A stretch of DNA of 64,000 nt from Alphaproteobacteria bacterium. Lineage in GTDB: Bacteria > Pseudomonadota > Alphaproteobacteria > Rhizobiales > Rhizobiaceae. Below, piece by piece: positions 6,939-49,030 of the stretch. The translations under genes and the position numbers were made by a program. How positions within the stretch are numbered: the stretch's first letter is position 1; each line of letters starts with the position of its first letter. A model generated the notes under the pieces. It worked only from the letters and a program-made list of their open reading frames with translations. It had not been told where the DNA came from and did no database searches. The stretch covers positions 1,302,001 to 1,366,000 of the forward strand of contig JANSYK010000002.1 in assembly GCA_024742485.1 (NCBI GenBank), read 5' to 3'.

Positions 6939-7892
6939 ATGGAAGGGCTGCGTTCGATCACACGAAAGCTCGATTTGCAGCACTATGTTGTCTATCTGGG
7001 CTTTCTGGCGATATTTGCCTTCTTCGCCATCACCTTGAGCGGCGACGGATTCCTGACCACCCGCAACCTGTCCAACATCGTCCTGCAAACGGCGCCGGCA
7101 ACGATCATGGCCATCGGCTTCGTGTTTGTGCTTTCAGCCGGTGAGATCGACCTGTCATTTGGTTCGATTACCGCCGTTTCGGCTCTGGCCGGTGCGGTGG
7201 TCATGCAGGACTTTCCGATGGTTATTGGCATTGCCGCCGGGCTCGGCGCCGGACTTGCCATCGGCTTCTTCAATGGTTTGCTGGTCGCCTATCTTCGCCT
7301 TCCGTCCTTTCTGGTAACGCTGGCCACACTCGGCCTTTTTGCCGGTCTCGCCCGGTCCATGACGAATTTGCGTTCGATCCCGGTCATCAATGACGCCTTT
7401 ACCGGGTTTTTCGGCTCCGGGGCCCTGTTCGGCATTCCCTCCCTCATCCTCTGGACCCTGGGAGCCGTGATAATCGGGCATCTGATCTATCGGGAAACCA
7501 GGTTTGGCGCCCATGTCATCGCAACCGGTGACAATCCGGGGGCGGCACGGGTCTCCGGCATCAAGGTGCCTCGTATCCGGCTCGCCGTCCTCATGATCAG
7601 TGGTGGCTGTGCTGGACTTGCCGGTTTGCTTTATGCCGGTCGCCTGCAGGCCGCCAAATACACTTTGGGCGAGAGCGATCTGATGACCGTCATCGCCGCC
7701 GTCATCGTCGGCGGCACGGCACTCAATGGCGGCAAGGGATCCGTGGTCGGCGCGCTGGTCGGATCGCTGCTGATGGGTATGCTCAACAACGGTTTGATCC
7801 TGATGGGCCTGTCTGTGTCCGATCAGATGATTGTGCGCGGTCTCATCATCCTTATCGCGGTGGCGATCTCGCTGCGCGATACGGGACGCTAG
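6939..7892 (+). CDS. ABC transporter permease, RbsC/CUT2 family
   Basis: A 317-residue, highly hydrophobic inner-membrane protein with eight to ten predicted helices. It shows the RbsC-type pattern GFVFVLSAGEIDLSFGSI and a C-terminal GGTALNGGKGSVVGALVGSLLMG segment. It should form the translocation pore with the ATPase encoded two genes later. ATG at 6939 has GGAGAGG upstream; an earlier in-frame ATG at 6882 lies across the hairpin and is disfavoured. Its TAG stop is also the left end of a dispersed repeat. Confidence 0.88.
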   Translation: MEGLRSITRKLDLQHYVVYLGFLAIFAFFAITLSGDGFLTTRNLSNIVLQTAPATIMAIGFVFVLSAGEIDLSFGSITAVSALAGAVVMQDFPMVIGIAAGLGAGLAIGFFNGLLVAYLRLPSFLVTLATLGLFAGLARSMTNLRSIPVINDAFTGFFGSGALFGIPSLILWTLGAVIIGHLIYRETRFGAHVIATGDNPGAARVSGIKVPRIRLAVLMISGGCAGLAGLLYAGRLQAAKYTLGESDLMTVIAAVIVGGTALNGGKGSVVGALVGSLLMGMLNNGLILMGLSVSDQMIVRGLIILIAVAISLRDTGR

Positions 7893-7982
7893 GGCAATTC
7901 AGGTTTGGTGGAGTCGGCAAAACCTGGTTGCGTCAACAACAGGCGCCGGGGTCACGTTTCTGACAAAACGTGAAACGGCCTA
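7890..7982 (+). repeat. Dispersed two-hairpin repeat, copy A
   Basis: This member of the family is found at five other places in the window. The left end reads CTAGGGCAATTCAGG. Hairpin 1 pairs CAGGTTT with AAAACCTG (about 7899-7926), and hairpin 2 is TCACGTTT...AAACGTGA (about 7952-7973). The right end GGCCTAA lies directly before the Shine-Dalgarno of the YhfX-like gene. The left-end TAG is the stop codon of the permease gene. Confidence 0.85.
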
Positions 7983-7993
7983 AGGAGAAATCA

Positions 7994-9208
7994 ATGTTTC
8001 TGGATGTGTTGAGGCGGAGAAACCCGCAATTCATCGAGGCAGCGATACAATTGCACCAGGAAGGTCGGATTCCGGCAAACGCCTATGTGCTCGATCTCGA
8101 CGCCGTGGAAGACAATGCGCGGATCTTTTCCGATGCCGCTCGAAAACATGATTTGAAAACCTTTGCCATGACCAAGCAGGTCGGCCGCAACAGCGGCTTT
8201 TGCCGGGCAGTGATGCGCGGCGGTATCGACCGCGCCGTGGCCGTCGATATGGCCTGCGCCATCGCCTGTGACCGGGCGGGATTGAAGACCGGTCATCTGG
8301 GCCATCTGGTGCAGGTGCCTCGTCACGAGGCGGCCATGGCGGCCCGCGCGCTGACACCGGATTACTGGACGGTGTTCAGTGATGATAAAGCCGCGGAAGC
8401 GGCCGCAGCGTCAGCTGATGCAGGGCGGATGCAAAATCTTCTCGCCCGAATCCAGACCCAAGATGATATCTTTTATCGCGGTCATGAGGGCGGTTTCGCA
8501 GCCGAGGAGATTGTCGCGGTTGCCGACAGGCTGGATGCGCTGGCCGGTGGTCGTTTTGCCGGCATCACAACCTTTCCCGCCCTGTTGTTTGACAATGACA
8601 GCGGTGCCGTCGAGCCGACCCACAATCTGACGACCCTCTCAAGAGCAGCCGAGGCTCTTGCTGCTTCCGGGCGAGACGATATCGAAATCAACGCGCCGGG
8701 GACGACGTCGTCCATCGTGCTGGATGCTTTGGCGGATGCCGGCGCAACACAGTGTGAACCCGGCAACGGACTACACGGAACGACCCCTCTGCACGCGATC
8801 AAGGACCTGCCGGAACGCCCGGCCGTGCTCTATCTGAGCGAGGTGTCCCATCTGCATGGTGGCCGCGCCTATTGTTTTGGCGGAGGACTCTACATTGATC
8901 CGGTGTTTCCGGACTACGATGTCAAGGCCATTGTCGGTGCTGGCCCCACCACATCGGAACAAGCGCTGGCCAGTGTCGAAATTCCGCCACCATCCGCCAT
9001 CGATTACTACGGCATGATCGACTGCGCCGGCAGTGTAAAGCCTCGGGCAGGCGACAGCGTCATCTTCGGCTTTCGCGGCCAGGCTTTCGTCACCCGCGCC
9101 TATACGGTCGGTGTTTCGGGGATTGCAGCGGGCACGCCAAAGGTTGAAACGATCGAGAACATTTTCGGCGTCGCCGAGCCCTGGCCGGAACGGGGGCAGC
9201 CATCGTGA
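7994..9208 (+). CDS. YhfX-like PLP-dependent enzyme (alanine racemase fold)
   Basis: A 404-residue fold-type III PLP protein. The N-terminal barrel starts around NAYVLDLDAVEDNARIF. The motif TKQVGRNSG near residue 58 carries the predicted Schiff-base lysine in the form seen in the E. coli YhfX group, rather than the KANAYGHG form of true alanine racemases. The C-terminal part (GDSVIFGFRGQAF) looks like the beta domain. Reactions in this fold include racemisation and aldol cleavage of amino acids; the YhfX reaction is not established to my knowledge. AAGGAG precedes ATG 7994. The gene lies inside a transporter operon, which suggests it processes the imported compound. Confidence 0.82.
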   Translation: MFLDVLRRRNPQFIEAAIQLHQEGRIPANAYVLDLDAVEDNARIFSDAARKHDLKTFAMTKQVGRNSGFCRAVMRGGIDRAVAVDMACAIACDRAGLKTGHLGHLVQVPRHEAAMAARALTPDYWTVFSDDKAAEAAAASADAGRMQNLLARIQTQDDIFYRGHEGGFAAEEIVAVADRLDALAGGRFAGITTFPALLFDNDSGAVEPTHNLTTLSRAAEALAASGRDDIEINAPGTTSSIVLDALADAGATQCEPGNGLHGTTPLHAIKDLPERPAVLYLSEVSHLHGGRAYCFGGGLYIDPVFPDYDVKAIVGAGPTTSEQALASVEIPPPSAIDYYGMIDCAGSVKPRAGDSVIFGFRGQAFVTRAYTVGVSGIAAGTPKVETIENIFGVAEPWPERGQPS

Positions 9209-9957
9209 CGGATCAACAATCACACCGTCGGCCGGTGCTGGAACTCCAGAACGTTCACAAGGCCTTTGCCGGCCTCGTCGCCGTCGAGGACTTTTCGCTG
9301 GACTTGCACGCCGGGGAAATCGTCGCCCTGGTCGGTGACAATGGTGCGGGCAAGTCGACCCTTGTTAAAATGATTTCGGGTGTCCATGCACCGACATCGG
9401 GAACGATCCGCCTGGATGGTGAAGATGTGAGCTTCGCCGATGCCAGTGTCGCCCGCTCGCGCGGCATCGAAGTGGTCTATCAGGATCTTGCTCTGGCCGA
9501 CCAGCAGCCGGTTTACATGAACATGTTTCTGGGGCGCGAAGCCGTGCGCGGACCGTTGCATTTGCTGGATCGCAAGACAATGATCGAACAGACCCAGACG
9601 CTGGTCGATGAACTGGATGTGCGCATCCCCTCTGCCCGCGCGATCATCCGCGACCTGTCCGGCGGTCAGCGGCAGGGTGTCGCGATCGCCCGTGCAACCC
9701 GCTGGGCCAAGAAACTCATATTGCTCGATGAACCGACAGCGGCGCTCGGCGTTGCCGAAACGGACAAGGTCGAAAAGATCATCACCACGCTCAAGGAACG
9801 CGACATTGCAATCCTGATCATCAGCCACAGCCTTGATCAGGTCTTCCGGCTGTCCGACCGGATCTGCGTCTTGAGACGCGGCGTTCAGATCGGCGTGCGC
9901 GAAACGGCTGCCACTGACAAGAACGAAATCGTCTCGATGATCACCGGCGTCAGTTGA
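9205..9957 (+). CDS. ABC transporter ATP-binding protein, single-domain sugar type
   Basis: A 250-residue nucleotide-binding subunit. Walker A is GDNGAGKST, the Q-loop is VVYQDLAL, the signature is [14 protein letters not shown] and Walker B is [12 protein letters not shown]. Classic RbsA proteins carry two fused ABC domains of about 500 residues; this one has a single domain and presumably dimerises. The GTG start overlaps the YhfX stop (GTGA). It completes the importer formed with the permease and binding protein, and ends 15 bp from the convergent edd gene. Confidence 0.9.
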
Positions 9958-9972
9958 ACGGGTGGCCCGATC

Positions 9973-11793
9973 TTATCCGTATAGCACGCTCGCACCGGCA
10001 TCGGCGCGCCCGGCCAGTGCCCGGAAATTGGCGAAGATTTCGCGGCCCATTCCGTGTTCATTGTCCGACAGGTCGACCTTGACCGGTTCGCGAGCCGAAA
10101 ATTCACTGTCATCGACCAGTACCGACAGGGTTCCGGCATCGGCGTCGAGGCGGATCATGTCGCCTTCGCGCAGCCGGGCAAGCGGGCTGTCATCGATGGC
10201 TTCCGGTGTCACATGGATGGCCGCAGGCACCTTGCCCGAGGCACCGGACATGCGCCCATCGGTTACCAGCGCCACCTTGCAGCCGCGATCCTGCAGCACA
10301 CCGAGCGGCGGCGTCAGCTTGTGGAGTTCCGGCATGCCATTGGCGCGTGGTCCTTGAAAACGGACGACAGCGATGAAGTCGCCGTCCAGGGCATCGGCTT
10401 TGAACGCTTCCTGAAACGCCTTTTGCGAGTGAAAGATTCGCGCCGGTGCTTCGACGATCCGGTGCTCCGGCTTGACGGCTGAAATCTTGATCACCGACTT
10501 GCCGAGATTGCCGGACAGCATCTTCAGGCCGCCATTTTTCTGGAACGGAGCCTCGAAGGTCGACAGGATTTTCGCGTTACCGCTGACCGGAGGAACCGGT
10601 TCGCGGGCGACCGTGCCATCTGCGTTGAGTTTCGGGTCGATGGCGTAGGCGGCAAGTCCGTCGCCCCAAACCGTGCGCACATCGTCATGCAGCATGCCAT
10701 TGGCCAGCAACTGCGAAATGAGAAAGCCGAGGCCGCCGGCCGCATGGAAGTGGTTCACATCGGATGGTCCGTTGGGATAGACCCGTGCCAGCAACGGCAC
10801 GATATCGGAAAGCTCCGATATGTCTTCCCAGGTCAGATGAATGCCGGCCGCGCGGGCCATGGCAATGAGGTGCATGGTGTGATTGGTCGAGCCGCCGGTT
10901 GCGTGCAGGCCGACAATGCCGTTGACCACGCTGCGCTCGTCGAACATCACCCCGGCAGGCGTGAACTCGTTACCGAGCGCAGTGATGGCCAGTGCCCGTT
11001 TGGCAGCTTCCCGTGTCAGGGCGTCACGCAACGGTGTGCCCGGATTGATAAAGGACGCGCCGGGCGTGTGAAAACCCATCAATTCCATCAGCATCTGGTT
11101 GGAATTGGCGGTTCCGTAGAATGTGCAGGTTCCGGGCCCGTGATAGGACTTGGATTCCGCATCGAGCAGTTCGGCGCGACCGACCTTGCCTTCGGCAAAG
11201 AGCTGGCGAATGCGCGTCTTCTCATTGTTGGGCAGTCCGGAGGTCATCGGTCCCGCCGGAATGAACACGGCCGGTAGATGGCCGAATGTCAGCGCCGCGA
11301 TCAGCAGTCCCGGAACGATCTTGTCGCAGACACCCAGATAGGCTGCGGCATCGAACATATTGTGGGAAAGACCGACGGCTGCCGACAGGGCGATGACATC
11401 TCGGGAGAACAGGGAAAGGTCCATGCCCGGCTGCCCCTGTGTGACACCATCGCACATGGCCGGCACACCACCGGCAACCTGCGCGACACCGCCCGCTTCC
11501 CTTGCGGCCGCCCGGATCAGATCCGGATAGCGTTCAAAGGGCTGGTGGGCGGACAACATGTCATTATAGGAGGTGATGATCCCGAGATTGGCGACCGTAT
11601 CCCCGGCCAGGGCATCCTTTTCATGCACACCGCAAGCGGCAAATCCGTGGGCAAGATTACCGCAGGAAAGGGTGCCACGGTGCGGACCGTGGTCTGCCGC
11701 CCGGTTGACGCGATCAAGGTAGATTTCGCGCGACGGTTTCGACCGCTCGATGATGCGGTGCGTGATGGTCTGTACAGATGATTGTGCGGCCAT
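9973..11793 (-). CDS. edd: 6-Phosphogluconate dehydratase (Entner-Doudoroff)
   Basis: A 606-residue IlvD/Edd family dehydratase that converts 6-phosphogluconate to 2-keto-3-deoxy-6-phosphogluconate in the cytoplasm. Edd-typical segments include [71 protein letters not shown] and [16 protein letters not shown]. The cysteines in the second and third of these are the expected iron-sulfur cluster ligands. ATG at 11793 has AGGA upstream. It is the last gene of zwf-pgl-edd, separated from pgl by repeat copy B. The eda aldolase gene is not in the window. Confidence 0.95.
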
Positions 11794-11866
11794 GATGTTC
11801 CTGCCGATCAAATGGTTTCGTTTGATGCCCGTTCGGGCAAAGGCGGCTAAGCCCTTTGCTCTGGTT

Positions 11867-11964
11867 CGTTTCACGTTCCGTCAGAAACGTGACAACGGTG
11901 TTGGCCGTTGATTCTGTTGATGCATTCAGGTTTTGCCGGTTCCGTCAAAACCTGAATGGCACTA
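11867..11964 (-). repeat. Dispersed two-hairpin repeat, copy B
   Basis: The reverse-oriented copy between pgl and edd. Hairpin 2 is TCACGTTCCGTCAGAAACGTGA (11871 onward), and hairpin 1 pairs ATTCAGGTTTTG with CAAAACCTGAAT (about 11924-11956). Its left-end TAG, read on the minus strand, is the stop codon of pgl (11962-11964). Confidence 0.85.
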
Positions 11965-12663
11965 TGGCGCCCAGTAAATCTGCAGCGGGCTACCGGTCTT
12001 TTTCAAGGCGGCACGAATGGGAAGCGCGCTGACCGGTCCCGGTTGCAGAGCCTTGTCGAGCACGTCCTTCTTGCCGCTTCCCTCGATGTGAAGGATGCAA
12101 AGTCCTGCCCGTGCAATGACCGGCAGGGTCAGGGTCAAGCGAGGCTCCCCGGCGCCTGGCGCGTCGATTGCCATCACTGTCTCGTCCGTTGCCGGATCGG
12201 TGACGGTATCCAATTGGTCACTTTGGGGAAACCAGGATGCCGTGTGCCCATCCGTGCCCATCCCGAGTATGACCGCATCGAACGGCTGTTTGATGGCGGC
12301 AATGTTTCCCGCCGCCCGACGCGCCGCTTCGGCAGCGCTGATCCCATCGGCGAACAGCGGAACGAATTGTGCGAAGGCTGCTTCGTTTTGCAGCAGTAAT
12401 GTGGCGACGAGGCGATGGTTCGACCGTTCATGGGACGATGGCACAAAACGCTCATCAACCAGTGCGATGGCGACCTTGTCCCAGGCGAGTGCGTGTTTGC
12501 TGAGGGCGAGAAAGAAGCCGCGCGGCGTGGATCCGCCTGATACGGCGAGGCTGGCTGCGCCGTCGCGTTCGACGGCTTGCGCAAGCACGTCGGCAACACG
12601 TTTCGCGAGGGCCTCGGCCAGCGCATCGCCCGTCTCGAATTCGATCATTCGCGGTTCACTCAT
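11962..12663 (-). CDS. pgl: 6-Phosphogluconolactonase
   Basis: A 233-residue protein that hydrolyses 6-phosphogluconolactone to 6-phosphogluconate. Family marks are AASLAVSGGSTPRGFF (phosphate-binding loop), VALVDERFVPSSHERSN, DAVILGMGTDGHTASWFP and a C-terminal PGPVSALPIRAAL segment. It lies between zwf and edd in the usual Entner-Doudoroff order, with a repeat copy on each side. Its TAG stop falls on the terminus of repeat B, so its last residues may reflect where that element inserted. Confidence 0.95.
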   Translation of the reverse strand: MSEPRMIEFETGDALAEALAKRVADVLAQAVERDGAASLAVSGGSTPRGFFLALSKHALAWDKVAIALVDERFVPSSHERSNHRLVATLLLQNEAAFAQFVPLFADGISAAEAARRAAGNIAAIKQPFDAVILGMGTDGHTASWFPQSDQLDTVTDPATDETVMAIDAPGAGEPRLTLTLPVIARAGLCILHIEGSGKKDVLDKALQPGPVSALPIRAALKKTGSPLQIYWAP

Positions 12664-12686
12664 TACAAATCAGGCGCCCTTCGCGC

Positions 12687-12789
12687 TAGATCAATTCAGG
12701 CTTTGGCGGTTTCGGTAAAACCTGAATGCATTGACAAAATCACAGGCCGATACCGTTGTCCCGTTTCTGACCAAACATGAAACGGTCTA
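12687..12789 (+). repeat. Dispersed two-hairpin repeat, copy C
   Basis: The forward-oriented copy between zwf and pgl. The left end is CTAGATCAATTCAGG, hairpin 1 pairs CAGGCTTTG with TAAAACCTG, and hairpin 2 starts CCCGTTTCTG. The right end GTCTAG supplies, on the minus strand, the TAG stop codon of zwf (12787-12789). Both termini read CTAG inward, the clearest example of inverted ends in the family. Confidence 0.85.
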
Positions 12790-14262
12790 GTGGCTCTCAT
12801 GCCAGGTTCGGCCGTCCCGTTCGATCAGCGCGATTGCCTGGGCCGGACCGGATGTCCCGGCCGTGTATCCGTGGCAGGGCTGCTCGCTTTCTTCCCATGC
12901 GGTCAGGATCGGATCGATCCATTGCCAGGCCGCTTCGACCTCGTCGCGCCGCATGAACAATGTCTGATTGCAGCGAATGACATCCATCAACAGGCGCTCA
13001 TAGGCGTCCGGATTGCGCACGCCGAAGCTTTCCGCGAAACTCATATCGAGCGGAACATGCCGCAACCGCATGCCTCCGGGCCCCGGATCCTTGATCATGA
13101 TCCACTGCTTGACCCCTTCGCCCGGTTGCAGCCGGATAACCAACTGGTTGGCGATCACATGCCCGGCGCTCTTGTCGAATATGGAATGCGGGATCGGCTT
13201 GAAATTGATGACGATCTCTGACACCCGTTCCGCCATCCGCTTGCCGGTCCGCAGGTAGAACGGCACGCCGGCCCAGCGCCAGTTCTCGATTTCCGCCTTG
13301 ATGGCGACAAAGGTCTCCGTCGTGGAGTTCTCGTCGCCGAGTTCCTCCAGGTAGCCGTCGACGGCGCCGCCGACGGAGGCGCCGGCCCGATATTGGCCGC
13401 GCACGGTTCGCATAGCGGCATTTTCGCCATCAATCGGGCTGAGCGCCCGCAAGACCTTGAGTTTTTCATCGCGAACCGCCTCGGCATCGGCGGAGGGCGG
13501 AGCCTCCATGGCCACCAGGCACAGAAGTTGGAGCATATGGTTCTGGACCATGTCGCGCAGTGCACCGGCCCGGTCGTAATAGGTGGTGCGGCCCTCGAGT
13601 CCGACCGACTCCGCAACGGTGATCTGGATATGGTCGATATGCGCGGAATTCCAGAGGGGCTCGTAGAGCGCATTGGCAAAACGCAGCGCCATCAGGTTCT
13701 GGACTGTTTCCTTGCCAAGATAGTGATCGATGCGAAAGATCTCGTCCTCGGAAAAGGCCTGACCGATCGTGTCATTCAATACCTGTGCAGACGCCAGATC
13801 GCGCCCGATCGGCTTTTCAACGACGATCCGTGTGTTTTCGGTCATCAGGCCATGGCTGCGGATTTGTCCGCAAATGTCCCCGAAGATCGACGGGCTGACG
13901 GCCAGGTAAAAGGCGCGAACCTGGGCCTCGCCCGAAGAAAGTAGCTTGGCCATGTCGTCCCAGCCGCGATCGGACCGTGCGTCGACGGAAACATAGTGGA
14001 GACGGTTCAGGAACCGGTCGACTTCCTGTGCATCATGCTCGCCCTCCCGGAGGTGGCGCGACAGGGCTTCGGCGGCGAATTCGCGGAAACTCTTGTCATC
14101 CAGCGCGGCGCGTGAGGCTCCGATGATGCGGGTCGGTTCGCTCAACTGGCCGGCGATTTGCCGGTGATAAAGAGCAGGAAGCAACTTGCGTTCGGAAAGG
14201 TCGCCGGTGCCGCCGAACACAACATAATCAAACGGTTCGACAGGGATCGTTTGGCTGCTCAT
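12787..14262 (-). CDS. zwf: Glucose-6-phosphate 1-dehydrogenase
   Basis: A 491-residue enzyme that oxidises glucose-6-phosphate to the lactone with NADP(+), feeding both the Entner-Doudoroff and oxidative pentose phosphate routes. Visible motifs are the coenzyme fingerprint VVFGGTGDLSERKLLPALYHR near the N-terminus, the active-site RIDHYLGKETVQN, and the substrate-binding FYLRTGKRM. It is the first gene of the operon; ATG 14262 faces the ArsR gene across about 220 bp. Its stop codon lies in repeat C. Confidence 0.97.
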   Translation of the reverse strand: MSSQTIPVEPFDYVVFGGTGDLSERKLLPALYHRQIAGQLSEPTRIIGASRAALDDKSFREFAAEALSRHLREGEHDAQEVDRFLNRLHYVSVDARSDRGWDDMAKLLSSGEAQVRAFYLAVSPSIFGDICGQIRSHGLMTENTRIVVEKPIGRDLASAQVLNDTIGQAFSEDEIFRIDHYLGKETVQNLMALRFANALYEPLWNSAHIDHIQITVAESVGLEGRTTYYDRAGALRDMVQNHMLQLLCLVAMEAPPSADAEAVRDEKLKVLRALSPIDGENAAMRTVRGQYRAGASVGGAVDGYLEELGDENSTTETFVAIKAEIENWRWAGVPFYLRTGKRMAERVSEIVINFKPIPHSIFDKSAGHVIANQLVIRLQPGEGVKQWIMIKDPGPGGMRLRHVPLDMSFAESFGVRNPDAYERLLMDVIRCNQTLFMRRDEVEAAWQWIDPILTAWEESEQPCHGYTAGTSGPAQAIALIERDGRTWHESH

Positions 14263-14444
14263 GGGCTTCGCTCATCGATGGGTTCAATTTTCCCCGGTCA
14301 TAATCTAATCGATTTAAAAAGACCAGTGCCAATCTGAAATATCGTTGCGGAAATGCATATTCGTCGTTTCTCGGCGGGTGGAAACCGCTTGAAACAGATG
14401 ATGAAACAATCGTGAGGCCGGATATTGCATCATGGAGAAAGTTT

Positions 14445-14474
14445 GGTAACTTTGAAGTTACGGTAACCTGAAAG
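14445..14474 (+). promoter_or_regulatory. ArsR-type operator
   Basis: GTAACTT/AAGTTAC forms an inverted repeat with a 2-nt centre (14446-14461), immediately followed by GGTAACC (14462-14468). The unit GGTAAC-N4-AAG thus also recurs directly with a 17-bp step (14445 and 14462). It lies just upstream of the ArsR start, the typical position for autoregulation. The rest of 14263-14481 shows no feature I can name beyond the expected zwf promoter. Confidence 0.6.
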
Positions 14475-14481
14475 TTTCGGT

Positions 14482-18518: not shown

Positions 18519-18521
18519 GCA

Positions 18522-22074: not shown

Positions 22075-23520
22075 TCAGACATTCAGCAGCAGGAATTCCC
22101 TTTCCCAGGGGCTGATGACCTGCATGAATGTCTCGAATTCACCCCGTTTGACGCCGCCATAGATGTCGATGAATGTGTTGCCGAACATCTCGGCAAATGC
22201 CGGTTCGCTTTCAAGCAGCGATACGGCTTCGAGCAGCCCGCGGGGCAGGTCGACCGTTGCGCCGGCATTGGCGGTTGTCGCCGTCGGACCATCGGGAACA
22301 ACGTCGCGCATCATGCCGAGCCAGCCGCTGGCAAGCGATGCCGCGATGGCCAGATAGGGATTGGCGTCTGATGATGGCAGCCGGTTTTCCAGTCGCCTTG
22401 CTTCAGGATCCGAATGGGGAACGCGAAACGCCACCGTGCGATTGTCATAGCCCCAGGCATTGTTGACGGGACAGGCCATATCGGGCGTCAGGCGGCGGTA
22501 GGAATTGACGTAAGGGGCCATCATGACCAGCGCTTTCGGCACGAAATGCTGCATGCCGCCGATAAAGGAAAAGAAACGCGGCGACGGCGAGCCGTCCGGG
22601 TTGCAGAAAATGTTCTTGCCGGTTTTGATATCCGTGACCGATTGATGGATATGCAGGGCCGAGCCGGCCTGACCCTGCATCGGCTTGGCCATGAATGTGG
22701 CGTAGATGCCGTGATTGAGCGCCGCCTCGCGCAGGGTGCGTTTGAACATGAAGACCTGGTCGGCCAGTTCCAGCGGATCGCCGTGTCGCAGGTTGATTTC
22801 CAGTTGCGCCGGGCCCTCCTCGTGGATCAGCGTGTCGATTTCCAGGCCCTGGGCCTCGGAGAAATGATAAATGTCGTCGATCAGCTCATCGAACTCGTTG
22901 ACGCCCGCAATCGAGTAGGACTGTCCGCGCACAATGCGTCGCCCCGATCGGCCAACTGGCGGCTGCAGCGGGTAATCGGGATCATCATTCAGCGCTATGA
23001 GATAAAATTCGATTTCCGGTGCGACGGCGGGTCGCCAACCCTGTTGTTCGTAGAGCGAGACAACCCTCTTGAGCACGGTGCGTGGCGCGTATTCGACACT
23101 CTGACCGTCCGGGTCCACCATGTCGCAAATCACCTGGGCGGTCGGATCGCTCTCCCATGGCACCACAGAAAGCGTGGACAGATCGGGCATCAGTTTCAGA
23201 TCGCCATCGCGCGGGTCGTATCGGAAATTGCCGGTTTCATCCGGATATTCGCCGGAGATTGTCTGCCGATAGAGGGCCGATGGCAGTGACAGCGACGTGT
23301 TCGAGGTGAATTTCGAACTTGGCATCATCTTGCCGCGGGGTACGCCGGCCAGGTCCGGCGTCACGCATTCGATATCCTCGATGCCGCGCGCACCAAGCCA
23401 TTCATTGACCTGCTTCCAGCTTGCCACGCCCCGGATATTGTCGATATAGGCCGGTCTCTTGTCTGTTTTTCTGCCCGCCCGGGTTTTGGGATGCGGGTTC
23501 TTTTTGGGTTTTTCGGCCAT
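22075..23520 (-). CDS. Glutamine-synthetase-like enzyme (PuuA/gamma-glutamylamide synthetase type)
   Basis: About 481 residues with the glutamine synthetase fold. The beta-grasp N-domain holds VTPDLAGVPRGKMMP; catalytic-domain motifs are VAPEIEFYL (metal-binding Glu), EEGPAQLEINLRHGD, GSALHIHQS and NRLPSSDANPYLAIAA. Divergence from GlnA and the short adenylylation region suggest a gamma-glutamylpolyamine or gamma-glutamylamide synthetase that ligates glutamate to an amine with ATP. No other polyamine genes are adjacent, so the amine is unknown. ATG 23520 is preferred over the TTG just before it. Confidence 0.85.
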   Translation of the reverse strand: MAEKPKKNPHPKTRAGRKTDKRPAYIDNIRGVASWKQVNEWLGARGIEDIECVTPDLAGVPRGKMMPSSKFTSNTSLSLPSALYRQTISGEYPDETGNFRYDPRDGDLKLMPDLSTLSVVPWESDPTAQVICDMVDPDGQSVEYAPRTVLKRVVSLYEQQGWRPAVAPEIEFYLIALNDDPDYPLQPPVGRSGRRIVRGQSYSIAGVNEFDELIDDIYHFSEAQGLEIDTLIHEEGPAQLEINLRHGDPLELADQVFMFKRTLREAALNHGIYATFMAKPMQGQAGSALHIHQSVTDIKTGKNIFCNPDGSPSPRFFSFIGGMQHFVPKALVMMAPYVNSYRRLTPDMACPVNNAWGYDNRTVAFRVPHSDPEARRLENRLPSSDANPYLAIAASLASGWLGMMRDVVPDGPTATTANAGATVDLPRGLLEAVSLLESEPAFAEMFGNTFIDIYGGVKRGEFETFMQVISPWEREFLLLNV

Positions 23521-23587
23521 CAAGTGCTCATTCGCAAATTTACATTTGGCTCCTCTTACCCCATTGCATGGTGCATTACAGCAAGAT

Positions 23588-23689
23588 TAGACCGCTTCCC
23601 GTTTGTTAGGCACGGGATAACGGTGCCGGCCTTGGATTTTGTTGATGCATTCGGCTTTTGTCGATTCGGTCAAAACCTGAATGGCTCAA
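23588..23689 (-). repeat. Dispersed two-hairpin repeat, copy D
   Basis: A diverged, reverse-oriented copy ending 17 bp before the BaiN-like start. Hairpin 2 has changed to CCCGT...ACGGG, where other copies have CACGT...ACGTG. Both arms changed together, a compensatory substitution that argues the hairpin structure is, or was, maintained. Confidence 0.75.
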
Positions 23690-23705
23690 ATTGTCAGGTA
23701 CACGC

Positions 23706-25209: not shown

Positions 25210-25220
25210 ATCCGGCAATA

Positions 25221-25248
25221 CCACCACGCGGGGCCGCGTGGTGGTTTT
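25221..25248 (+). terminator. Rho-independent terminator
   Basis: A 10-bp perfect stem CCACCACGCG/CGCGTGGTGG with loop GGGC is followed by TTTT. It ends transcription after the cyclase remnant and the flavoprotein gene. Confidence 0.85.
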
Positions 25249-25257
25249 CCAGATCGC

Positions 25258-25297
25258 TTCAAGTCTTTCCGATTCCGTCAAAACCTGAATTGTTCTG
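25258..25297 (-). repeat. Dispersed repeat, copy E (left-end fragment)
   Basis: Only the left end and a decayed hairpin 1 of the repeat family remain: TCAAAACCTGAATTG matches the conserved arm, while the opposite arm is degenerate. It sits beside the cyclase deletion remnant, so local rearrangement may have removed the rest. Confidence 0.6.
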
Positions 25298-25316
25298 ATG
25301 GAGTGCAGATCGTCGT

Positions 25317-39061: not shown

Positions 39062-39075
39062 CTGTCAGCATTCGA

Positions 39076-40915: not shown

Positions 40916-40932
40916 TTTAGAATAATTCTAAT
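40916..40932 (-). promoter_or_regulatory. Irr box (iron control element)
   Basis: TTTAGAATAATTCTAAT matches the rhizobial Irr/ICE consensus TTTAGAA-N3-TTCTAAA at all but the final base of the right arm. It lies upstream of the iron(III) permease gene. Irr is a haem-responsive Fur relative that acts under low iron; at uptake genes it usually activates or derepresses. Confidence 0.75.
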
Positions 40933-40980
40933 CTGCGGCGTGGCCCGCTCGGTGTCGTGATCCGGTCCACCCCCTTCAGT

Positions 40981-43900: not shown

Positions 43901-44478
43901 GGATGTTTGACCAATCGGTCATTTTCCGACGCCACGTCGCGGACGATTTGTGCGCGTGTTTCGGCATCCATGTTCAGACGGTCAAAGGATCCGGTGGCCT
44001 GCAGGATTGCGCCATCGCGGTCCAGAACGGCCGCGTGGGTGTCCATTTCTTCGAAGCCGTCGATAATGAATGCGGCCTGTTCTTCGGGGGTTTCGGCTGG
44101 ATCGGCAATGCTGGCGGTCAATAAAAGGGCATGATTGCCATCGGCAAGTTGAATGCGTTCCATCGCCGCGGGCAGCAGCGGGCGCCGGAAACCTGAGCCG
44201 GTACGCATGACGAAGGTCTGCTGCGGATTATCGGTCGCATTCACAACACTGCTTGCCGCGGCCTCGATCTGTCGAAAAGACGCGGTTGAAGGGCTCAAGC
44301 CCGAATCCATGAACTCGTACAGGCCTGCGTGGCCGAACAGCCGCGCACCCGGACCATTGACCCACAGGACATCGGTGAGTGACAGGGAGAGCACCACAAC
44401 GGCGTCACCCGCGGCGTAGCGCGTCCGTATCTTCTCATGAACGGCAATATCGATGAAAGGGTATTGCCCCGTTGGCAT
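40981..44478 (-). CDS. Large PAS-domain sensor histidine kinase, PdhS/CbrA-like
   Basis: A 1165-residue cytoplasmic kinase with no clear membrane helix. An N-terminal sensory region (YPFIDIAVHEKIRTRYAAGD) is followed by a long acidic, low-complexity linker, then PAS-like units near residues 345-480, 650-740 and 785-905. The HisKA box RVSHEIRTPLNAIIGFSDLMAEERFG has the phosphorylated His at residue 943. The ATPase has N (INILSNAIRF), G1 (RDTGVGM) and G2 (GDGTGLGLPLAKA) boxes. The H-box type is shared with PdhS, CbrA, PleC and DivJ kinases that act on the DivK cell-cycle relay. A CtrA-type site lies upstream. The exact orthologue is not certain. Confidence 0.85.
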   Translation of the reverse strand: MPTGQYPFIDIAVHEKIRTRYAAGDAVVVLSLSLTDVLWVNGPGARLFGHAGLYEFMDSGLSPSTASFRQIEAAASSVVNATDNPQQTFVMRTGSGFRRPLLPAAMERIQLADGNHALLLTASIADPAETPEEQAAFIIDGFEEMDTHAAVLDRDGAILQATGSFDRLNMDAETRAQIVRDVASENDRLVKHPVRTALGFLPAAIARITDDAHLLIAIEMSIGNLDPAPGDQPKTIERAAVPAVQPVKAPDPTPSVLDLASSSRERDGGDRQRPADADSREQDLDVTEGPAEQPARQSAANDQDDRDANTAATAKASVSSPDIAHPVDDDGKTSSPDEDQFVFNPRKRPVRFVWKIDAEGVFREISDEFAETVGPNAADIEGRKFADVAQVFNTDPDHAISDLLRRRDTWSGKTVLWPVQGTDLRVPVDLAALPTYSRDREFDGFRGFGIVRASDAQSDPERIGLALVNNPATLDSIDQAPDPVGQHDESDSIDGPSHGPQPTENDETPPSGEQPHSRDGAQEEGEKPALDIADSPGRRQSDKVIRLEERRSKPRDGLSTAEKQAFHEIAKRLGQTPDQDTPEPPVAFGKRPVPPQSADDDVAPGLASEEDETGGQDEANTPVTADTPDDADAPPPAVKTETEEEPTQELLGRDASVTPELLENLPIPVIVHDGTTIFHINEEFRLLTGYLSTTQLNEAGGLDILFDGHSAIGDTVETASGAGTLALHLANGQSVSVRARLRSIAWDDGRALMLALSEVVPAASQPEADVIDGPVEDTVSEEERVESAGRISALQVEVDELRSILETATDGVVLIDDDGIIRSMNQSASALFDYDEEETSGQPFAMLFAHESQRAVQDYLAGLTGNAVASVLNDGREVIGREASGGFLPLFMTIGHLSRSNGFCAVMRDITQWKRAEEELRTAKREAETASSHKSEFLARVSHEIRTPLNAIIGFSDLMAEERFGPIGSPRYVEYAHDIGRSGKHVLDIVNDLLDISKIEAGEQELDFQAVSLNQALLDAVSILQPQANSQRVIIRTSLSSSVPDVVADQRSIKQIAINILSNAIRFTQAGGQVVVSTSYEESGNVSLRIRDTGVGMTRHQLEQAMKPFRQVTGVPRERGDGTGLGLPLAKAMAEANRAQFAMNSQPGQGTLVEIVFPSQRVLAE

Positions 44479-44598
44479 GGCACTTCCTGCGTCAGTCTGG
44501 CCGGTCGGTTCAGTCCCGTGACTCTAACCGTCTGCCATTTGCGTTTTGTCGCACTGCCCGGGATCCGTGGACACCCGGTTAGAACACGACCTTCATTG

Positions 44599-44613
44599 TT
44601 AAGAAATTGTTAA
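44599..44613. promoter_or_regulatory. CtrA-box candidate
   Basis: TTAA-GAAATTG-TTAA is an exact TTAA-N7-TTAA pair, about 120 bp upstream of the kinase start and 77 bp before the phasin operator. CtrA is the cell-cycle master regulator of this group, and the adjacent kinase resembles kinases of the same circuit. Confidence 0.5.
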
Positions 44614-44689
44614 TAAATCGCAACTGGCCCCTGGTCCAGAACGCGGGCTCTTTGGGCTGATGATTCCTGCCAACAGGGTTAATGGGATG

Positions 44690-44735
44690 GTGCACTGCAA
44701 AAAAATGTTGCAATGCACAAAAACATCCTTATATA
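44690..44735 (+). promoter_or_regulatory. Phasin promoter with PhaR-like operator
   Basis: GTGCACTGCAA (44690-44700) and TTGCAATGCAC (44708-44718) form an 11-bp inverted repeat with one mismatch and a 7-nt centre. The right arm doubles as a -35 (TTGCAA 44708-44713), and TATATA (44730-44735) is a -10 at 16 bp. TGCA-rich repeats are the known binding mode of PhaR, the PHB-responsive repressor of phasin genes. The rest of the 44479-44800 gap contains the CtrA-box candidate and nothing else I can name. Confidence 0.7.
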
Positions 44736-44800
44736 GACCCTGTAATCATCGACAAACAATGGGCGCCTTTGAAGAGGGCCCGCAATCAGGAGTGCATATT

Positions 44801-45256
44801 ATGGCTACCAAAAAGACACCAGCAGAAGACGTTTTCTCCTTTGCCGCCTTCGATCCGGCAAAACTGACCGAGTCCTATCGCGAATTTGCTGAAAAGGGCA
44901 TGGTTCAGTCGAAGGATGCCTATGCAAAGCTGAAGGATGCTGCCGAAGACGCAACCAAGACGGTCGAACAGACACTTGAAAGCGCACAGGCCGGAAGCGT
45001 TGCGTTGAGCCTCAAGGCAATCGACACGGTCCGCGCCAATGCCGACAGCTCGCTGTCGCATGCCGAAGCGCTTCTCGGCGTCAAGTCCGTTGCCGAACTG
45101 TTTGAATTGCAGTCCTCGTTTTTCCGCAGTCAGGCCGAAGCCGCTGTCGAACAGGCCAAAGACATCCAGGAAGCAGCACGCAAGGTTGCCGAAGATGTCT
45201 CGAAACCCGGCAAGGCCGCATACGAAAAAGTATCCAAAAACATCAAAGCCGCTTAA
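44801..45256 (+). CDS. Phasin family protein
   Basis: A 151-residue amphipathic helical protein: FDPAKLTESYREFAEKGMVQSKDAYAKLKDAAEDATKTVEQTLESA is the phasin signature region, and the tail repeats A/K/E heptads (EQAKDIQEAARKVAEDVSK). Phasins coat polyhydroxyalkanoate granules and limit their fusion. AGGAG lies 8 bases before ATG 44801. A PhaR-like operator and a strong terminator bracket the gene, so it is monocistronic. Confidence 0.93.
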   Translation: MATKKTPAEDVFSFAAFDPAKLTESYREFAEKGMVQSKDAYAKLKDAAEDATKTVEQTLESAQAGSVALSLKAIDTVRANADSSLSHAEALLGVKSVAELFELQSSFFRSQAEAAVEQAKDIQEAARKVAEDVSKPGKAAYEKVSKNIKAA

Positions 45257-45285
45257 CCCGAGCGCGCAAGCCAACGGATGTTTCG

Positions 45286-45313
45286 AAAGCCGGACCTTTG
45301 GTCCGGCTTTTTT
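45286..45313 (+). terminator. Phasin Rho-independent terminator
   Basis: An 11-bp stem AAAGCCGGACC/GGTCCGGCTTT with a TTT loop continues into a T-run to 45313. Confidence 0.93.
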
Positions 45314-45348
45314 GTTTCTGTGGATAGGCGTGGGGGACACAATCCCTC

Positions 45349-45377
45349 TTGCAAAAAGAACCGCATCGCCGTATGTC
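45349..45377 (+). promoter_or_regulatory. Promoter of tRNA-His
   Basis: -35 TTGCAA (45349-45354) and -10 TATGTC (45372-45377) are separated by 17 bp, 26 bp before the mature tRNA 5' end. Confidence 0.55.
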
Positions 45378-45403
45378 ACGCCCTCAGGACGATGCACTGA
45401 CAT

Positions 45404-45480
45404 GCGGTTGTAGCTCAGTTGGTTAGAGCGCTGGATTGTGGATCCAGAGGTCGGTGGTTCAAATCCACCCAACCGTACCA
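45404..45480 (+). tRNA. tRNA-His (anticodon GTG)
   Basis: A 77-nt cloverleaf with encoded CCA. The acceptor arm is GCGGTTG/CAACCGT, the D-loop contains AGTTGGTTA, the anticodon stem CTGGA/TCCAG encloses GTG (45438-45440), and the T-arm is GGTGGTTCAAATCCACC. The base before G1 is T, the 1:72 pair is G:U and the discriminator is A73. G-1, the near-universal tRNA-His identity element, is therefore not encoded, as known for a subgroup of alphaproteobacteria. Confidence 0.97.
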
Positions 45481-45570
45481 TCGCTCACCGGTCCATGCCG
45501 GCCGATCTTCAAAACACGGATTGATGCCGATCATAACAATTGGTGTTTGCTGACCCTCCGGTCGGTCAGG

Positions 45571-48231
45571 ATGTGTTCCCATGAGTGGTTCCATCCAAAA
45601 CAAACTTGCTCTACTAATCCTGTGGGTACAGATTCGATCACAGGACGGGCAGGCGGATTGGCGACGGCGGCATCTGAAAATCGACTGAATATCCGAACCT
45701 CTCTGACCGCCGTCTTCGCCATTGGCATCACGGTTTTCTCCCTCTATCTGTTGCACAACCTGACCGCTGAGATTTCGTTTTCGGATGTTGTCACCGACAT
45801 ACGAAACACGCCAACCAGCCATGTCCTCTTTGCCATTTGCGCGACGATCGTCAGTTTCACCGCGATTGCCTACTACGAAATTCTTGCGGTGCGGACCGTC
45901 GCACCGGGGCGGGTCTCCACCGCAACCGCTGCCTGGACTGGAATTGCCGGTTTCGCGATATCGGATGTTGCCGGTTTCCATGTTCTGACCGGCGGCGCCC
46001 TGAGGTATCGGATCTACAGCCAGAAGGGGTTGGAATTCCCGCTGATCAGCCAGATTGTTTTCCTTTCCTGGATGTCACTCTGGCTTGGCATGTTTTTCCT
46101 CATCAGCGCGGCGTTGGCAGTTCATCCGAGCGGTATCCTCGTGCTCCAATGGCTGCCGACCGATATTGTGCGCTCTCTGGGCATCGCGATTTTGTTGCTG
46201 ATCGCGGCCTATTTCATCTGGGGTGCCAATGGGCAACGGACGATTTCGATAAGGGGCATGTCGGCCCGGATACCGGGGATCGGCACCAGCCTGCAGCAAC
46301 TGGCATCCGGCGTTCTCGACATCGCCGCATCGGCATTCACACTCTATATTCTGCTGCCCGCTGACGTTGCCGGTTCGCTGAGCGGATTCTTCGTGCTCTA
46401 CATTTCGGCGGTGATCCTGGGTGCCGTCAGCCATTCGCCGGGTGGGATTGGTGTCTTCGAGGCCACCATGATGGCCGGGCTCGGCGTTCTTGGCCGGTCG
46501 GATGTGGTGGGTGCACTCGTTCTCTACCGCGTCATCTACTATTTCCTGCCACTCGTTCCAGTCGCCCTTATTCTGCTTTTTCTCGAAGTGGTGCGCGGAC
46601 ACAGGGCGATCCGAAAGTCCGTCCGGGAAATCGGAAAGGCATCCGAACCGCTGGTTCCTCCCCTTGCCGCCGGGCTGACCTTCATTGGTGGCCTGATCCT
46701 TCTGTTTTCCGGCTCGCTTCCCATGAGCGCACTGGATGATGCCTGGGTCCGGTCGGTGCTGGCTCTGCCCTTTGTTGAATCGTCGCACCTGTTGGCCAGT
46801 CTGATCGGCGTGGCGCTCCTGGTGGTCGCCCATGCCCTGCTGAGGCGTCGCGCTGCCGGTTTCAACATGGCGATCATCCTGCTGATTGCCGGCGCCGTGT
46901 TTTCCCTGGCCAAGGGTCTGGATTTCGAGGAAGCCGGTATCCTGGCCGTTATTGGCCTCATTCTCATCCCTTTTCGCCCTGCATTTTACCGCAAATCCGG
47001 AGAGCCGCTTTTTGCCGTCACGCCATCCTGGCTCGCCATCATCGCCATTACCGTGGCAGCGGCTGTCTGGCTCGGTTTCTTTGCCTATCGCCACGTTGAG
47101 TATTCCAACGAATTGTGGTGGCAGTTTTCATGGCAGGACGGTGCTCCGCGTTTTCTACGGGCAAGCGTAGCCATCGTCGCAGTGGTGTTTGCTCTCGGAC
47201 TCTATCTGATCCTCAACCGTCGGGCGGCGAATGTCGCACCGATCGGACCTGTTCCTGATGTTGTGCGCTCGCTCGTTGAAAAGTCCACCAGCACCGACAC
47301 GACGATCGCGCTGCTCGGAGACAAGCATTTTCTGATCGCCGAGGACGAAAGCGCCTTTTTGATGTACGGCGTCATGGGCGGGACCTACATTTCCATGTGC
47401 GACCCTGTCGGAGATCCGGTGCAGGGTGCCGCGCTGGCGTGGCAGTTTCGCGAAATGGCCGATCAGGGCGGTTATCGCACCGCGTTCTATTCGATCGGCA
47501 CGGACTACCTGCCGCTTTATCTCGATATGGGGCTGTCGGTTCTCAAGATGGGAGAAGTGGCGCGGGTCGATCTGGCCGCCTTTTCCCTTGAAGGCCCGAA
47601 GCAGAAAGATTTTCGCTATGCCCGCCGGCGTGCCGCCAAGGACGGATTGCAGTTCGAGATCGTGCCACGGACGGATGTGCCGGCCATTCTGCCGGAACTC
47701 AGGGAGGTGTCCAATAGCTGGCTGGAAATCAAGTCCGGCAATGAGAAACAGTTTGCGATTGCCAATTTCAACGATGACTACATGCGCTGTTTCGACTGCG
47801 GCATCGTGCGCCATGAGGGGCGGATCGTGGCCTTTGCGAATATCCTGGCCGGCGCGGACAAGGAGGAAATGTCGATCGACCTGATGCGCTATCGGCCAAA
47901 GATCTCCAACGTCTTGATGGATTTCCTTTTTGCCGAGCTGCTGCTCCACGCCCAGCAGGAGGAGTATCGCTGGTTCAATCTCGGCGCGGCGCCACTTGCC
48001 GGTCTCACCGATCATCCGCTTGCGAGCTCGTGGAACCGCATCGGCACGATGATCTACAGGCGTGGCGAGGATTTCTATCATTTCGAAGGGTTGCGTTCCT
48101 TCAAGGACAAGTTCAGTCCGGTCTGGACGCCGCATTATCTGGCCTGTCCGGGCGGACTGGCCGCGCCGCGCGTGCTGTTTGATATCACCGCGCTGATCGC
48201 CGGCGGGCGGCTCGGGATCGCCAAGCGGTGA
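45571..48231 (+). CDS. mprF: Lysylphosphatidylglycerol synthase/flippase (MprF/LpiA)
   Basis: About 886 residues. A membrane half with a dozen or more helices contains the flippase motif region (HSPGGIGVFEATMMAGLGVLG), followed by a DUF2156 synthase domain in the last 300 residues (FLIAEDESAFLMYGVMGGTYISMCDPVGDP; FNLGAAPLAGL; WTPHYLA). It transfers lysine from Lys-tRNA to phosphatidylglycerol and flips the product, lowering membrane charge; in rhizobia (lpiA) it is acid-induced. The start is uncertain: ATG 45571 lacks spacing to a Shine-Dalgarno, and TTG 45658 (after GGCAGGCGGA) is a good alternative. It is coupled to acvB by GTGA. Confidence 0.92.
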   Translation: MCSHEWFHPKQTCSTNPVGTDSITGRAGGLATAASENRLNIRTSLTAVFAIGITVFSLYLLHNLTAEISFSDVVTDIRNTPTSHVLFAICATIVSFTAIAYYEILAVRTVAPGRVSTATAAWTGIAGFAISDVAGFHVLTGGALRYRIYSQKGLEFPLISQIVFLSWMSLWLGMFFLISAALAVHPSGILVLQWLPTDIVRSLGIAILLLIAAYFIWGANGQRTISIRGMSARIPGIGTSLQQLASGVLDIAASAFTLYILLPADVAGSLSGFFVLYISAVILGAVSHSPGGIGVFEATMMAGLGVLGRSDVVGALVLYRVIYYFLPLVPVALILLFLEVVRGHRAIRKSVREIGKASEPLVPPLAAGLTFIGGLILLFSGSLPMSALDDAWVRSVLALPFVESSHLLASLIGVALLVVAHALLRRRAAGFNMAIILLIAGAVFSLAKGLDFEEAGILAVIGLILIPFRPAFYRKSGEPLFAVTPSWLAIIAITVAAAVWLGFFAYRHVEYSNELWWQFSWQDGAPRFLRASVAIVAVVFALGLYLILNRRAANVAPIGPVPDVVRSLVEKSTSTDTTIALLGDKHFLIAEDESAFLMYGVMGGTYISMCDPVGDPVQGAALAWQFREMADQGGYRTAFYSIGTDYLPLYLDMGLSVLKMGEVARVDLAAFSLEGPKQKDFRYARRRAAKDGLQFEIVPRTDVPAILPELREVSNSWLEIKSGNEKQFAIANFNDDYMRCFDCGIVRHEGRIVAFANILAGADKEEMSIDLMRYRPKISNVLMDFLFAELLLHAQQEEYRWFNLGAAPLAGLTDHPLASSWNRIGTMIYRRGEDFYHFEGLRSFKDKFSPVWTPHYLACPGGLAAPRVLFDITALIAGGRLGIAKR

Positions 48232-48893
48232 GGGTCGCTCTGACCATTCTGCTTTTGCTCTTGGGCATTGGCAGGGTTCCTGCGGATACGGCCTTCGCCG
48301 ATCTGCCACTCAATGTGACCGAACCGAACGGCCAGGTGCGTGGAATGGTGATCCTGTGGTCCGGGGATGCAGGCTGGAGCGGCACCATGCAGTCGCTCGC
48401 GGATGCGCTCGCAGAACGAGGCTATGGTGTGGTTGGTATCAGTTCGCTGCGTTACTTCTGGCACGAGCAGGCGCCGCAGATCATGGCCACCGACAATGAC
48501 CGCCTTGTGACCCATTATGCGGCATTGTGGGAGACAGATACAATCATCCTCGCCGGCTATTCATTTGGTGCCGATGTGCTGCCCTTTGCCTGGCCGCTGA
48601 TGGCAGAAGAGACACGAGCGGCAACCAGCCTGATCGGGTTGTTGAGCCCATTTCCGAAAACGGAATTCAGGATCACGTTTCTCGGCATGCTGGGGATCAT
48701 ACGCGGCAGTCACGATGTCAGTGCCGCGATTGCATCGCTGCCGGCGGACCGGGTTTTTTGCCTGATCGGTGAGGACGAAGACGATATGGCCTGCGCGCCA
48801 TCAACCGAATACAGATTTGAAACGGTGCCGGGTGGTCATCGCTACAATCGCGATGCCGATCTCGTCGCGGACCGGCTGATCGGGGCGCTTTGA
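48228..48893 (+). CDS. acvB: AcvB/VirJ-like lysyl-phosphatidylglycerol hydrolase, single domain
   Basis: A 221-residue periplasmic alpha/beta-hydrolase with an N-terminal signal sequence (VALTILLLLLGIGRVPADTAFA). The nucleophile elbow AGYSFGADV places Ser112, with a likely acid at GEDEDD (183-186) and His204 in GGHRYN. In Agrobacterium AcvB and R. tropici AtvA this domain cleaves lysyl-phosphatidylglycerol, the product of the upstream gene. Those proteins carry an extra domain and are about twice as long; this one has only the VirJ-sized part. The GTG start overlaps the mprF stop. Confidence 0.88.
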   Translation: MRVALTILLLLLGIGRVPADTAFADLPLNVTEPNGQVRGMVILWSGDAGWSGTMQSLADALAERGYGVVGISSLRYFWHEQAPQIMATDNDRLVTHYAALWETDTIILAGYSFGADVLPFAWPLMAEETRAATSLIGLLSPFPKTEFRITFLGMLGIIRGSHDVSAAIASLPADRVFCLIGEDEDDMACAPSTEYRFETVPGGHRYNRDADLVADRLIGAL

Positions 48894-48928
48894 TGTTGAC
48901 CCTGCCGCTTTGCTCCGGCTCACACGGG

Positions 48929-49030
48929 TAGGGCAATTCAGGTTTTGACGGGTTCGGCAAAACCAGAATGCGTCAACAGGATCAACTACCGACACCGTTG
49001 TCACGTTTCTGACAGAATCAGAAAGGCGTC
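48929..49030 (+). repeat. Dispersed two-hairpin repeat, copy F
   Basis: The left end is TAGGGCAATTCAGG, hairpin 1 pairs CAGGTTTTG with CAAAACCAG, and hairpin 2 starts TCACGTTTCTGA with a decayed right arm. The right end overlaps the 3' end of the GNAT gene, whose last four codons and TGA stop (49018-49020) are encoded in the element. Confidence 0.8.

Follow-up and report, generated by a model that had tools for sequence, protein, structure and literature searches.

Since the 1990s, short palindromic repeats scattered between genes have been recorded in alphaproteobacteria. Here we report the analysis of one such family, a 105-bp two-armed element present in several copies in a 64,000-nucleotide stretch of a Rhizobiaceae genome (the window; contig JANSYK010000002.1 of assembly GCA_024742485.1, positions 1,302,001 to 1,366,000), together with its copies in this genome and in related genomes.

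Several described systems come close to this family, as excerpts of the papers cited here portray them. The CIRs of Caulobacter and Brucella are intergenic repeats of about 110 bp with two arms and a linker, GANTC at a loop, and TA termini, and the review that treats them asks for more information on the mechanism of their mobility (PMC2229807). RIMEs, or Rhizobium-specific intergenic mosaic elements, are annotated in Sinorhizobium meliloti (PMC2573895, PMC2245857), and the RIME paper is cited for REP elements (PMC2873474). The Bru-RS repeats are palindromic, intergenic and 103-105 bp long (PMC2267715); Bru-RS1 measures 103 bp, and the insertion sequence (IS) IS711, which is associated with Bru-RS, duplicates TA at YTAR (PMC3163539, PMC2266754). 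In Streptococcus pneumoniae, the non-coding 107-bp RUP has a TA target, with mobilisation in trans by IS630-Spn1 proposed (PMC2229807), and the stop codons of 36 annotated genes are supplied by BOX, with no strong evidence that these genes were truncated (PMC3049150). Tagged REPs and the RAYTs are treated elsewhere (PMC3733652). In searches that covered a part of the open-access literature, no title or displayed abstract was found that describes the present consensus, or the landing of such elements on stop codons in alphaproteobacteria.

In this study, we describe the anatomy of the element, its distribution, its empty sites in congeneric genomes and its insertion target, and we relate it to a diverged family, R2. 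It is, we consider with fair assurance, a non-autonomous MITE-like element (miniature inverted-repeat transposable element) of the RIME/CIR/Bru-RS kind, mobilised in trans.

Element structure and copies in the window

The genome of the window is called G000, seven congeners are called G001 to G007, and R1 denotes the model of the window family, which was built from 34 aligned copies. The 105-bp consensus is CTAGAGCAATTCAGGTTTTGACGGAATCGGCAAAACCTGAATGCATCAACAAAATCAAAGGCCGACACCGTTGTCCCGTTTCTGACAAAACGTGAAACGGTCTAG, with the terminal repeats GAGCAATTCAGG / GACCGTTTCACG. It consists of two arms, each an imperfect palindrome, and a linker of about 22 bases between them. The two arms are inverted homologues of each other, identical at 27 of 36 positions, which none of 2000 shuffles equalled; the element thus ends in long, imperfect inverted repeats of 36 bases, each folded as an arm. 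The initial annotation of the window, made from the sequence alone, had described inverted TAG-bearing ends, and these turn out to be the outer part of this stronger repeat. Its two hairpins are likewise borne out, as none of 200 shuffles folds as well as the consensus, whether as DNA (-23.6 kcal/mol, z -5.8) or as RNA (-34.5, z -4.4). The RIME-like arrangement that it proposed holds as a layout, and Rfam at the gathering score gave no family for the element in the window, its sole match being a tRNA (45404-45477).

The five copies and one fragment already listed in that annotation proved real, with limits that differ by a few bases after fitting to the model, and one diverged copy had been missed. 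The model-fitted copies are as follows.

7889-7983, plus strand: copy A
11861-11965, minus strand: copy B
12686-12790, plus strand: copy C
23587-23690, minus strand: copy D
48928-49033, plus strand: copy E
25216-25298, minus strand: fragment F, a degenerate copy (28.8 bits)
130-237, plus strand: a further degenerate copy, new with respect to the initial annotation (31.5 bits)

A 14-base arm pattern searched with up to 3 mismatches gave 15 matches against 5.1 expected, and none of 100 shuffles had as many.

For the statistics below we examined 107 distinct copies, 50 in G000 and 57 in G001. They are the 108 collected from four sets of results (15 of 30, 45 of 60 and 26 of 28 matches, and 22 of 29 loci) minus one duplicate; what was dropped was weak, fragmentary, on the opposite strand or inside stretches already taken. 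The highest-scoring copies of G000 and G001 are among them, so the set is not a random sample. Within it the linker is less conserved than the arms: 32 copies differ at linker position 59 and 25 at position 65, against mostly 0-10 copies for the arm positions.

Covariation between paired positions is weak within the family. A paired change in copy D had been taken as a sign that structure was maintained, but since position 76 is normally a C opposite T (81 of 107 copies, with C-G in 5 and A-T in 9), copy D carries a single change that restores the pair opposite the majority C. Pairs with double changes are no commoner than in shuffles (3 versus 2.8 expected; 275 of 500), which does not make covariation a proof of maintained structure; cells with double changes are somewhat above shuffles (7 versus 3.0; 15 of 500). 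One G000 copy (L021, 1497-1602) has a nearly perfect right palindrome through several simultaneous changes, as if one strand of the arm had templated the other.

The consensus carries GAATC in the loop of arm 1, and the CIRs, at about 110 bp with two arms and a linker, have a GANTC at one loop in the excerpted description (PMC2229807), which would suit a CIR-type element kept for a GANTC methylation site of CcrM. Preferential conservation of the site is not seen, however: GANTC is intact in the arm 1 loop in 69 of 107 copies, compared with 70 predicted from the product of the four site frequencies, and its positions are among the more variable ones; we therefore reject this explanation as highly improbable.

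Copy number and distribution

All of the 96 candidates scored in G000 matched R1, some of them perhaps as the opposite-strand match of one copy, and the 96 candidates scored in G001 likewise gave 96 matches. The six other congeners (G002 to G007) gave none at E 0.001, with 96 candidates scored in each under a stricter filter. Copies of at least 75 bits number 29 in 864 kb of G000 (window included) and 31 in 400 kb of G001, which extrapolates to about 230 in 6.87 Mb and about 530 in 6.8 Mb, respectively. The consensus sequences built separately from the 50 and the 57 copies are identical at 105 of 105 positions.

In zwf DNA the genome nearest to G000 is G003 (83%), which has no R1 copies, and the farthest is G001 (76%, level with G004 at 76%), which is full of them. 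The zwf protein places the host in the Rhizobiaceae: its best matches among named genomes were a Rhizobiaceae metagenome-assembled genome (85%) and Flavimaribacter sediminis (81%). When 247 genomes of this family were searched, with 16 candidates scored in each, eight matched R1 at E 1e-6, and the six besides G000 and G001 did so more weakly. In 30 further genomes reached via zwf loci, mostly of other genera, R1 gave two weak matches (best E 2.5e-4 and 0.007), both in Mesorhizobium, and it had no match in S. meliloti 4H41.

Empty sites in congeneric genomes

The initial annotation had regarded the repeat as dispersed and mobile-looking, and had reasoned that absence of copies from the rest of the genome, or the same copies at every orthologous site in distant genera, would speak against mobility. 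Neither is the case: G000 is rich in copies, distant genera yielded the two weak matches given above, and in G003, the nearest relative, the sites that could be tested carry no element. At two G003 sites, those of copies A and C, both flanks could be resolved, and there is one YTAR (TTAG and CTAG, respectively) where the element is absent and two where it is present. At site A, the empty G003 sequence reads gggacg-TTAG-GAGAAGAC and the filled G000 sequence gggacg-CTAG...CTAA-GGAGAAATCA; at site C, the zwf stop has one CTAG in G003 and two in G000. Four more sites were resolved on the left only (L183:18990, L184:2609, L183:8188 and L183:7083), where the G003 stop is TAG once and TGA three times.

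At all six G003 sites the gene ends at the same codon with and without the element, and no remnant of an element was seen at any of them. Because G003 has no R1 match, a gain in G000 is the simpler reading for these sites. Neither G003 nor G001 has an element at the place of copy B; G001 also lacks one at site C and, on the aligned left flank, at site E. Conversely, G001 has a copy on the stop codon of edd, a gene that ends at the same codon in G000, G002 and G004 to G007, and one codon earlier in G003. Thus at none of the seven sites with orthologues (the six in G003 and edd) is the protein shortened.

Insertion target and landing on stop codons

In 43 of the 107 copies (25 of 50 in G000, 18 of 57 in G001) a neighbouring open reading frame (ORF) runs into the element and has the terminal TAG or TAA as its stop, as scored with stop-to-stop frames 120 or more codons long. 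The landings are found at the left end in 26 copies and at the right end in 22, five copies having them at both ends, and no other offset exceeded 3 copies at either end. Copies in the window illustrate the pattern. The left-end TAG of copy A (7890-7892) is the stop codon of an ABC permease gene (6882-7892), and its right end directly abuts an AGGAGA stretch followed by the ATG at 7994 of the next gene. The left-end TAG of copy B is the stop (11962-11964, minus strand) of a 6-phosphogluconolactonase-type gene (11962-12663), and zwf (12787-14262) has as its stop codon (12787-12789, minus strand) the right-end TAG of copy C, in the inward reading. Copy D lies between divergent genes, for glutamine synthetase (22075-23523, minus strand) and an HI0933-like flavoprotein (plus strand), with no stop codon involved, and copy E begins 35 bases past the stop of a VirJ-domain gene (48228-48893). 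Copies B and C (11861-12790) flank the 6-phosphogluconolactonase-type gene within a zwf-pgl-edd row, one on the pgl stop and one on the zwf stop.

As a control we considered the target itself in copy-free congeners, using greedy start-to-stop gene calls of at least 100 codons; this caller differs from the one applied to the copies, so that the numbers are approximate (with the control caller, the stop-codon offset accounts for 45 of 135 gene ends at copies). In 359 kb of DNA from copy-free congeners the tetramer CTAG is rare: it occurs 77 times, where trinucleotide frequencies predict 230. Stop codons make up 19 of the 49 non-genic CTAGs (39%) in this DNA, compared with 55 of 287 for YTAR and about 137 of 1401 for TA (TAG and TAA stops over those plus non-genic TA). 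The observed 43 of 107 agrees with CTAG (p 0.77), whereas YTAR as a whole (p 5e-7) and TA (p 1e-16) are rejected. Since CTAG is depleted and 39% of its non-genic occurrences are stop codons, the choice of CTAG as target together with selection against gene disruption explains the pattern: an element landing at this rare tetramer very often lands exactly on the stop codon of a gene, with its own first bases, TAG, still serving. To the initial annotation this adds that the terminal TAG is tied to the insertion target, CTAG, which is often a stop codon. The approximately three-fold depletion of CTAG relative to trinucleotide expectation is common to the copy-free congeners, G000 and G001.

The base composition of the ends, compiled for 103 of the 107 copies, fits a TA retained on both sides of C^TA^G. 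The element abuts YTA at one end and TAR at the other, CTAG being the preferred form. The outer base is a pyrimidine on the left (C in 59, T in 29 of 103) and a purine on the right (G in 63, A in 34), and T and A each reach about 75-80% on both sides. The inner base is nearly fixed (G in 86 on the left, C in 90 on the right) while the outer one varies, which makes a four-base target duplication unlikely. Departures from TA are mostly transitions to CA or TG; an ongoing mutational loss of CTAG, which its depletion suggests, would be expected to produce such changes as well.

Gene context

Copies are enriched between convergent genes (44 of 99, against 137 of 585 background gene pairs) and depleted between divergent ones (8 of 99, against 117 of 585). 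The counts cover 99 of the 107 copies, four at stretch edges and four inside an ORF being left out, and the background includes the G000 stretches. This context, the stable RNA fold of the consensus and the stronger conservation of the arms relative to the linker are what one would look for in a 3'-end RNA or DNA element, such as an mRNA stabiliser, a processing site or a bidirectional terminator, selected and kept for its hairpins. That the two orientations serve almost equally at stop codons (26 versus 22) favours inserted DNA over an RNA role tied to one strand. The placement is moreover accounted for by CTAG targeting, double-change pairs are no commoner than in shuffles, and no copies were found in six congeners. 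We regard a selected 3'-end element as very unlikely.

Mobilisation of the element

The element has the marks of a MITE, being short, non-coding, dispersed and present in many copies with terminal inverted repeats (27 of 36 positions). Empty orthologous sites exist, and at the two sites resolved on both flanks YTAR or TA is seen duplicated, while the two ends of the copies show no significant correlation. On the reading we prefer, a transposase supplied in trans would recognise the arms, excise or copy the element, and insert it at YTAR, best at C^TA^G, after which TA (perhaps as part of a longer tetramer) would flank both ends. As the first base of the element inside the TA is a G, insertion into a TAG or TAA stop from either side would leave TAG, and the gene would keep its full product; insertions elsewhere in genes would be removed by selection. 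Selfish spread of this kind would account for the abundance of the copies. The mover is most likely a DDE-type transposase with YTAR/TA specificity, for which IS630-type elements and IS711, a member of the IS5 family, provide models.

Several observations weigh against this trans-mobilised MITE. At three of the six G003 sites the relative has CTGA and not YTAR. Between the dinucleotides at the two ends there is no significant correlation (45 equal versus 41.2 expected, p 0.18), so that equality of the two ends was dropped as a proof of target duplication, and the TA duplication is argued from the two empty sites and base composition. No helper transposase was found, in that no IS630-type or IS711-type mover could be tied to the element, and no longer element with matching ends occurs in the examined stretches, which are part of the genomes. 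The edd stop of G005 (L168, 14314) carries TAGAGCAAATCAGG, which agrees with the left end of the element at 13 of 14 bases but includes no further part of it, and which is the sole match within one mismatch in the copy-free congener DNA examined (100 shuffled patterns gave a mean of 0.02 and a maximum of 1). This stretch is probably a deletion remnant and the site probably not pristine; it may once have held a copy, and other congeners now free of copies may likewise have had them.

The probable remnant, which lies where G001 has a full copy, suits a family that is old, was already carried by the ancestor of the genus and has since disappeared from most species, as opposed to one that spread recently in two. 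So does the identity of the consensus in two carriers so far apart in zwf, G001 being among those least like G000. Such a history is nevertheless improbable in our view: sites B, C and E, which can be tested between G000 and G001, are not shared, and the six G003 sites bear no remnant.

Independent variation of the two terminal dinucleotides is also what a REPIN or BIME would show, that is, two inverted tagged REPs moved as single-stranded DNA by a RAYT (Y1 family) with no target duplication; the element, with its pair of inverted homologous hairpins that each follow a (C)TAG, has this layout. Matches to Y1_Tnp were found in four of 14 genomes searched, including G001 and the R2-rich Mesorhizobium genomes G062 and G063. 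G000, however, has no Y1_Tnp/RAYT (PF01797), and neither do nine of the 13 other genomes, among them the R2-rich S. meliloti 4H41 (G044) and Mesorhizobium sp. 1M-11 (G064). The match in G001 is a weak one, at 24.1 bits for a cut-off of 23, and has an internal stop, while the copy-free G003 has a match; REPs, moreover, measure 20-40 bp (PMC3733652). A REPIN-like origin is thus unlikely, and for genomes other than G000 we also consider mobilisation by a RAYT less likely than by a DDE-type enzyme.

Candidates for the DDE-type helper and for an autonomous parent were rejected. The IS630-type domain DDE_3 gave two matches in G000 and none in G001, and is present in the copy-free G004, G006 and G007; its distribution does not follow the element, and it was discarded for this reason. 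In the examined stretches three inverted pairs of ends lie 600-1700 bases apart. The best of them encloses an ORF that by eye resembles a membrane transporter, one lies between two listed copies, and one joins a copy to a further end.

A diverged relative family

A weak full-length match of R1 at one Mesorhizobium locus led to the diverged family R2, whose model was built from 10 copies. It aligns end to end with the window consensus with a score of 19, compared with at most 0.5 in 2000 shuffles, and shares its length, its arms and its ends (CTAG, TTAG, CTGG, CCAG). At E 0.001, 25 of 30 genomes match R2 (24 of 29 if G002 and G041 are one genome, as is probable). Mesorhizobium sp. 1M-11 has 131 matches (every candidate scored), Pseudochrobactrum kiredjianiae 118, S. 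psoraleae 91 and S. meliloti 4H41 83. Within the window's own genus, G000 has one match to R2, G001 eight, each of G002 to G004 three to four, and G005 to G007 none. Landing on stop codons recurs in 16 of 40 copies, taken from 44 matches by leaving out one duplicate and the three weakest. At the chvI-exoS locus of three Sinorhizobium/Ensifer genomes, taken as a calibration point for RIME1, R2 had no match, and nothing was seen there by eye in S. meliloti 4H41.

In Mesorhizobium sp. 1M-11, elements at L266 and L267 (1501-1607) join the standard right arm to a left arm of another kind, as if arms had been exchanged between subfamilies, and such joining suits the word 'mosaic' in the name RIME. 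We believe R2 to be of RIME type, having set it beside RIME by description and not by sequence. Two further resemblances were noted. In Bartonella choladocola (L079, 408-882) 19 bases resembling the Mesorhizobium arm occur five times (at 408, 522, 636, 750 and 864) with a 114-base period, possibly a tandem array of a piece of the element; in G004, which has no R1 copies, TAGAGCGTTTCATGATCAAATGGAAACATTTGATG (L172, 14372, minus strand) resembles an arm belonging to a further family of this type.

A broader picture, which we put forward as speculative and rather doubtful, is that a Rhizobiales-wide trans-acting system, neither RAYT nor standard IS630, moves a superfamily of two-armed hairpins adapted to rebuild CTAG stops, the same 105 bp having multiplied separately in distant species of one genus.

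Comparison with known systems

The window family supplies empty sites, a target (CTAG/YTAR) and a quantitative reason for the occurrence of such repeats on stop codons, and its two carriers, together with six congeners in which no copies were found, form a natural contrast set for finding the mobilising enzyme. It shares with REPINs and BIMEs the inverted pair of palindromes with a TAG-bearing tag, but its units are longer and G000 has no RAYT. The remaining likenesses are by description only. BOX also supplies stop codons, although no CTAG target is described for it in the excerpted source. RUP has a similar size and a TA target; for the window family, no IS with matching ends was found in the examined stretches. 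RIMEs are intergenic repeats of S. meliloti, in which R2 is abundant, and R2 shows mosaic arm exchange in Mesorhizobium, whereas R1 itself has no match in S. meliloti 4H41. With the CIRs the window family has in common a size of about 110 bp, two arms with a linker, TA termini and intergenic location, but GANTC, highly conserved in CIRs, is not preferentially so in the window family. The Bru-RS repeats are of like size, and the YTAR/TA target of their associated IS711 is the same as the target that we infer for the window family.

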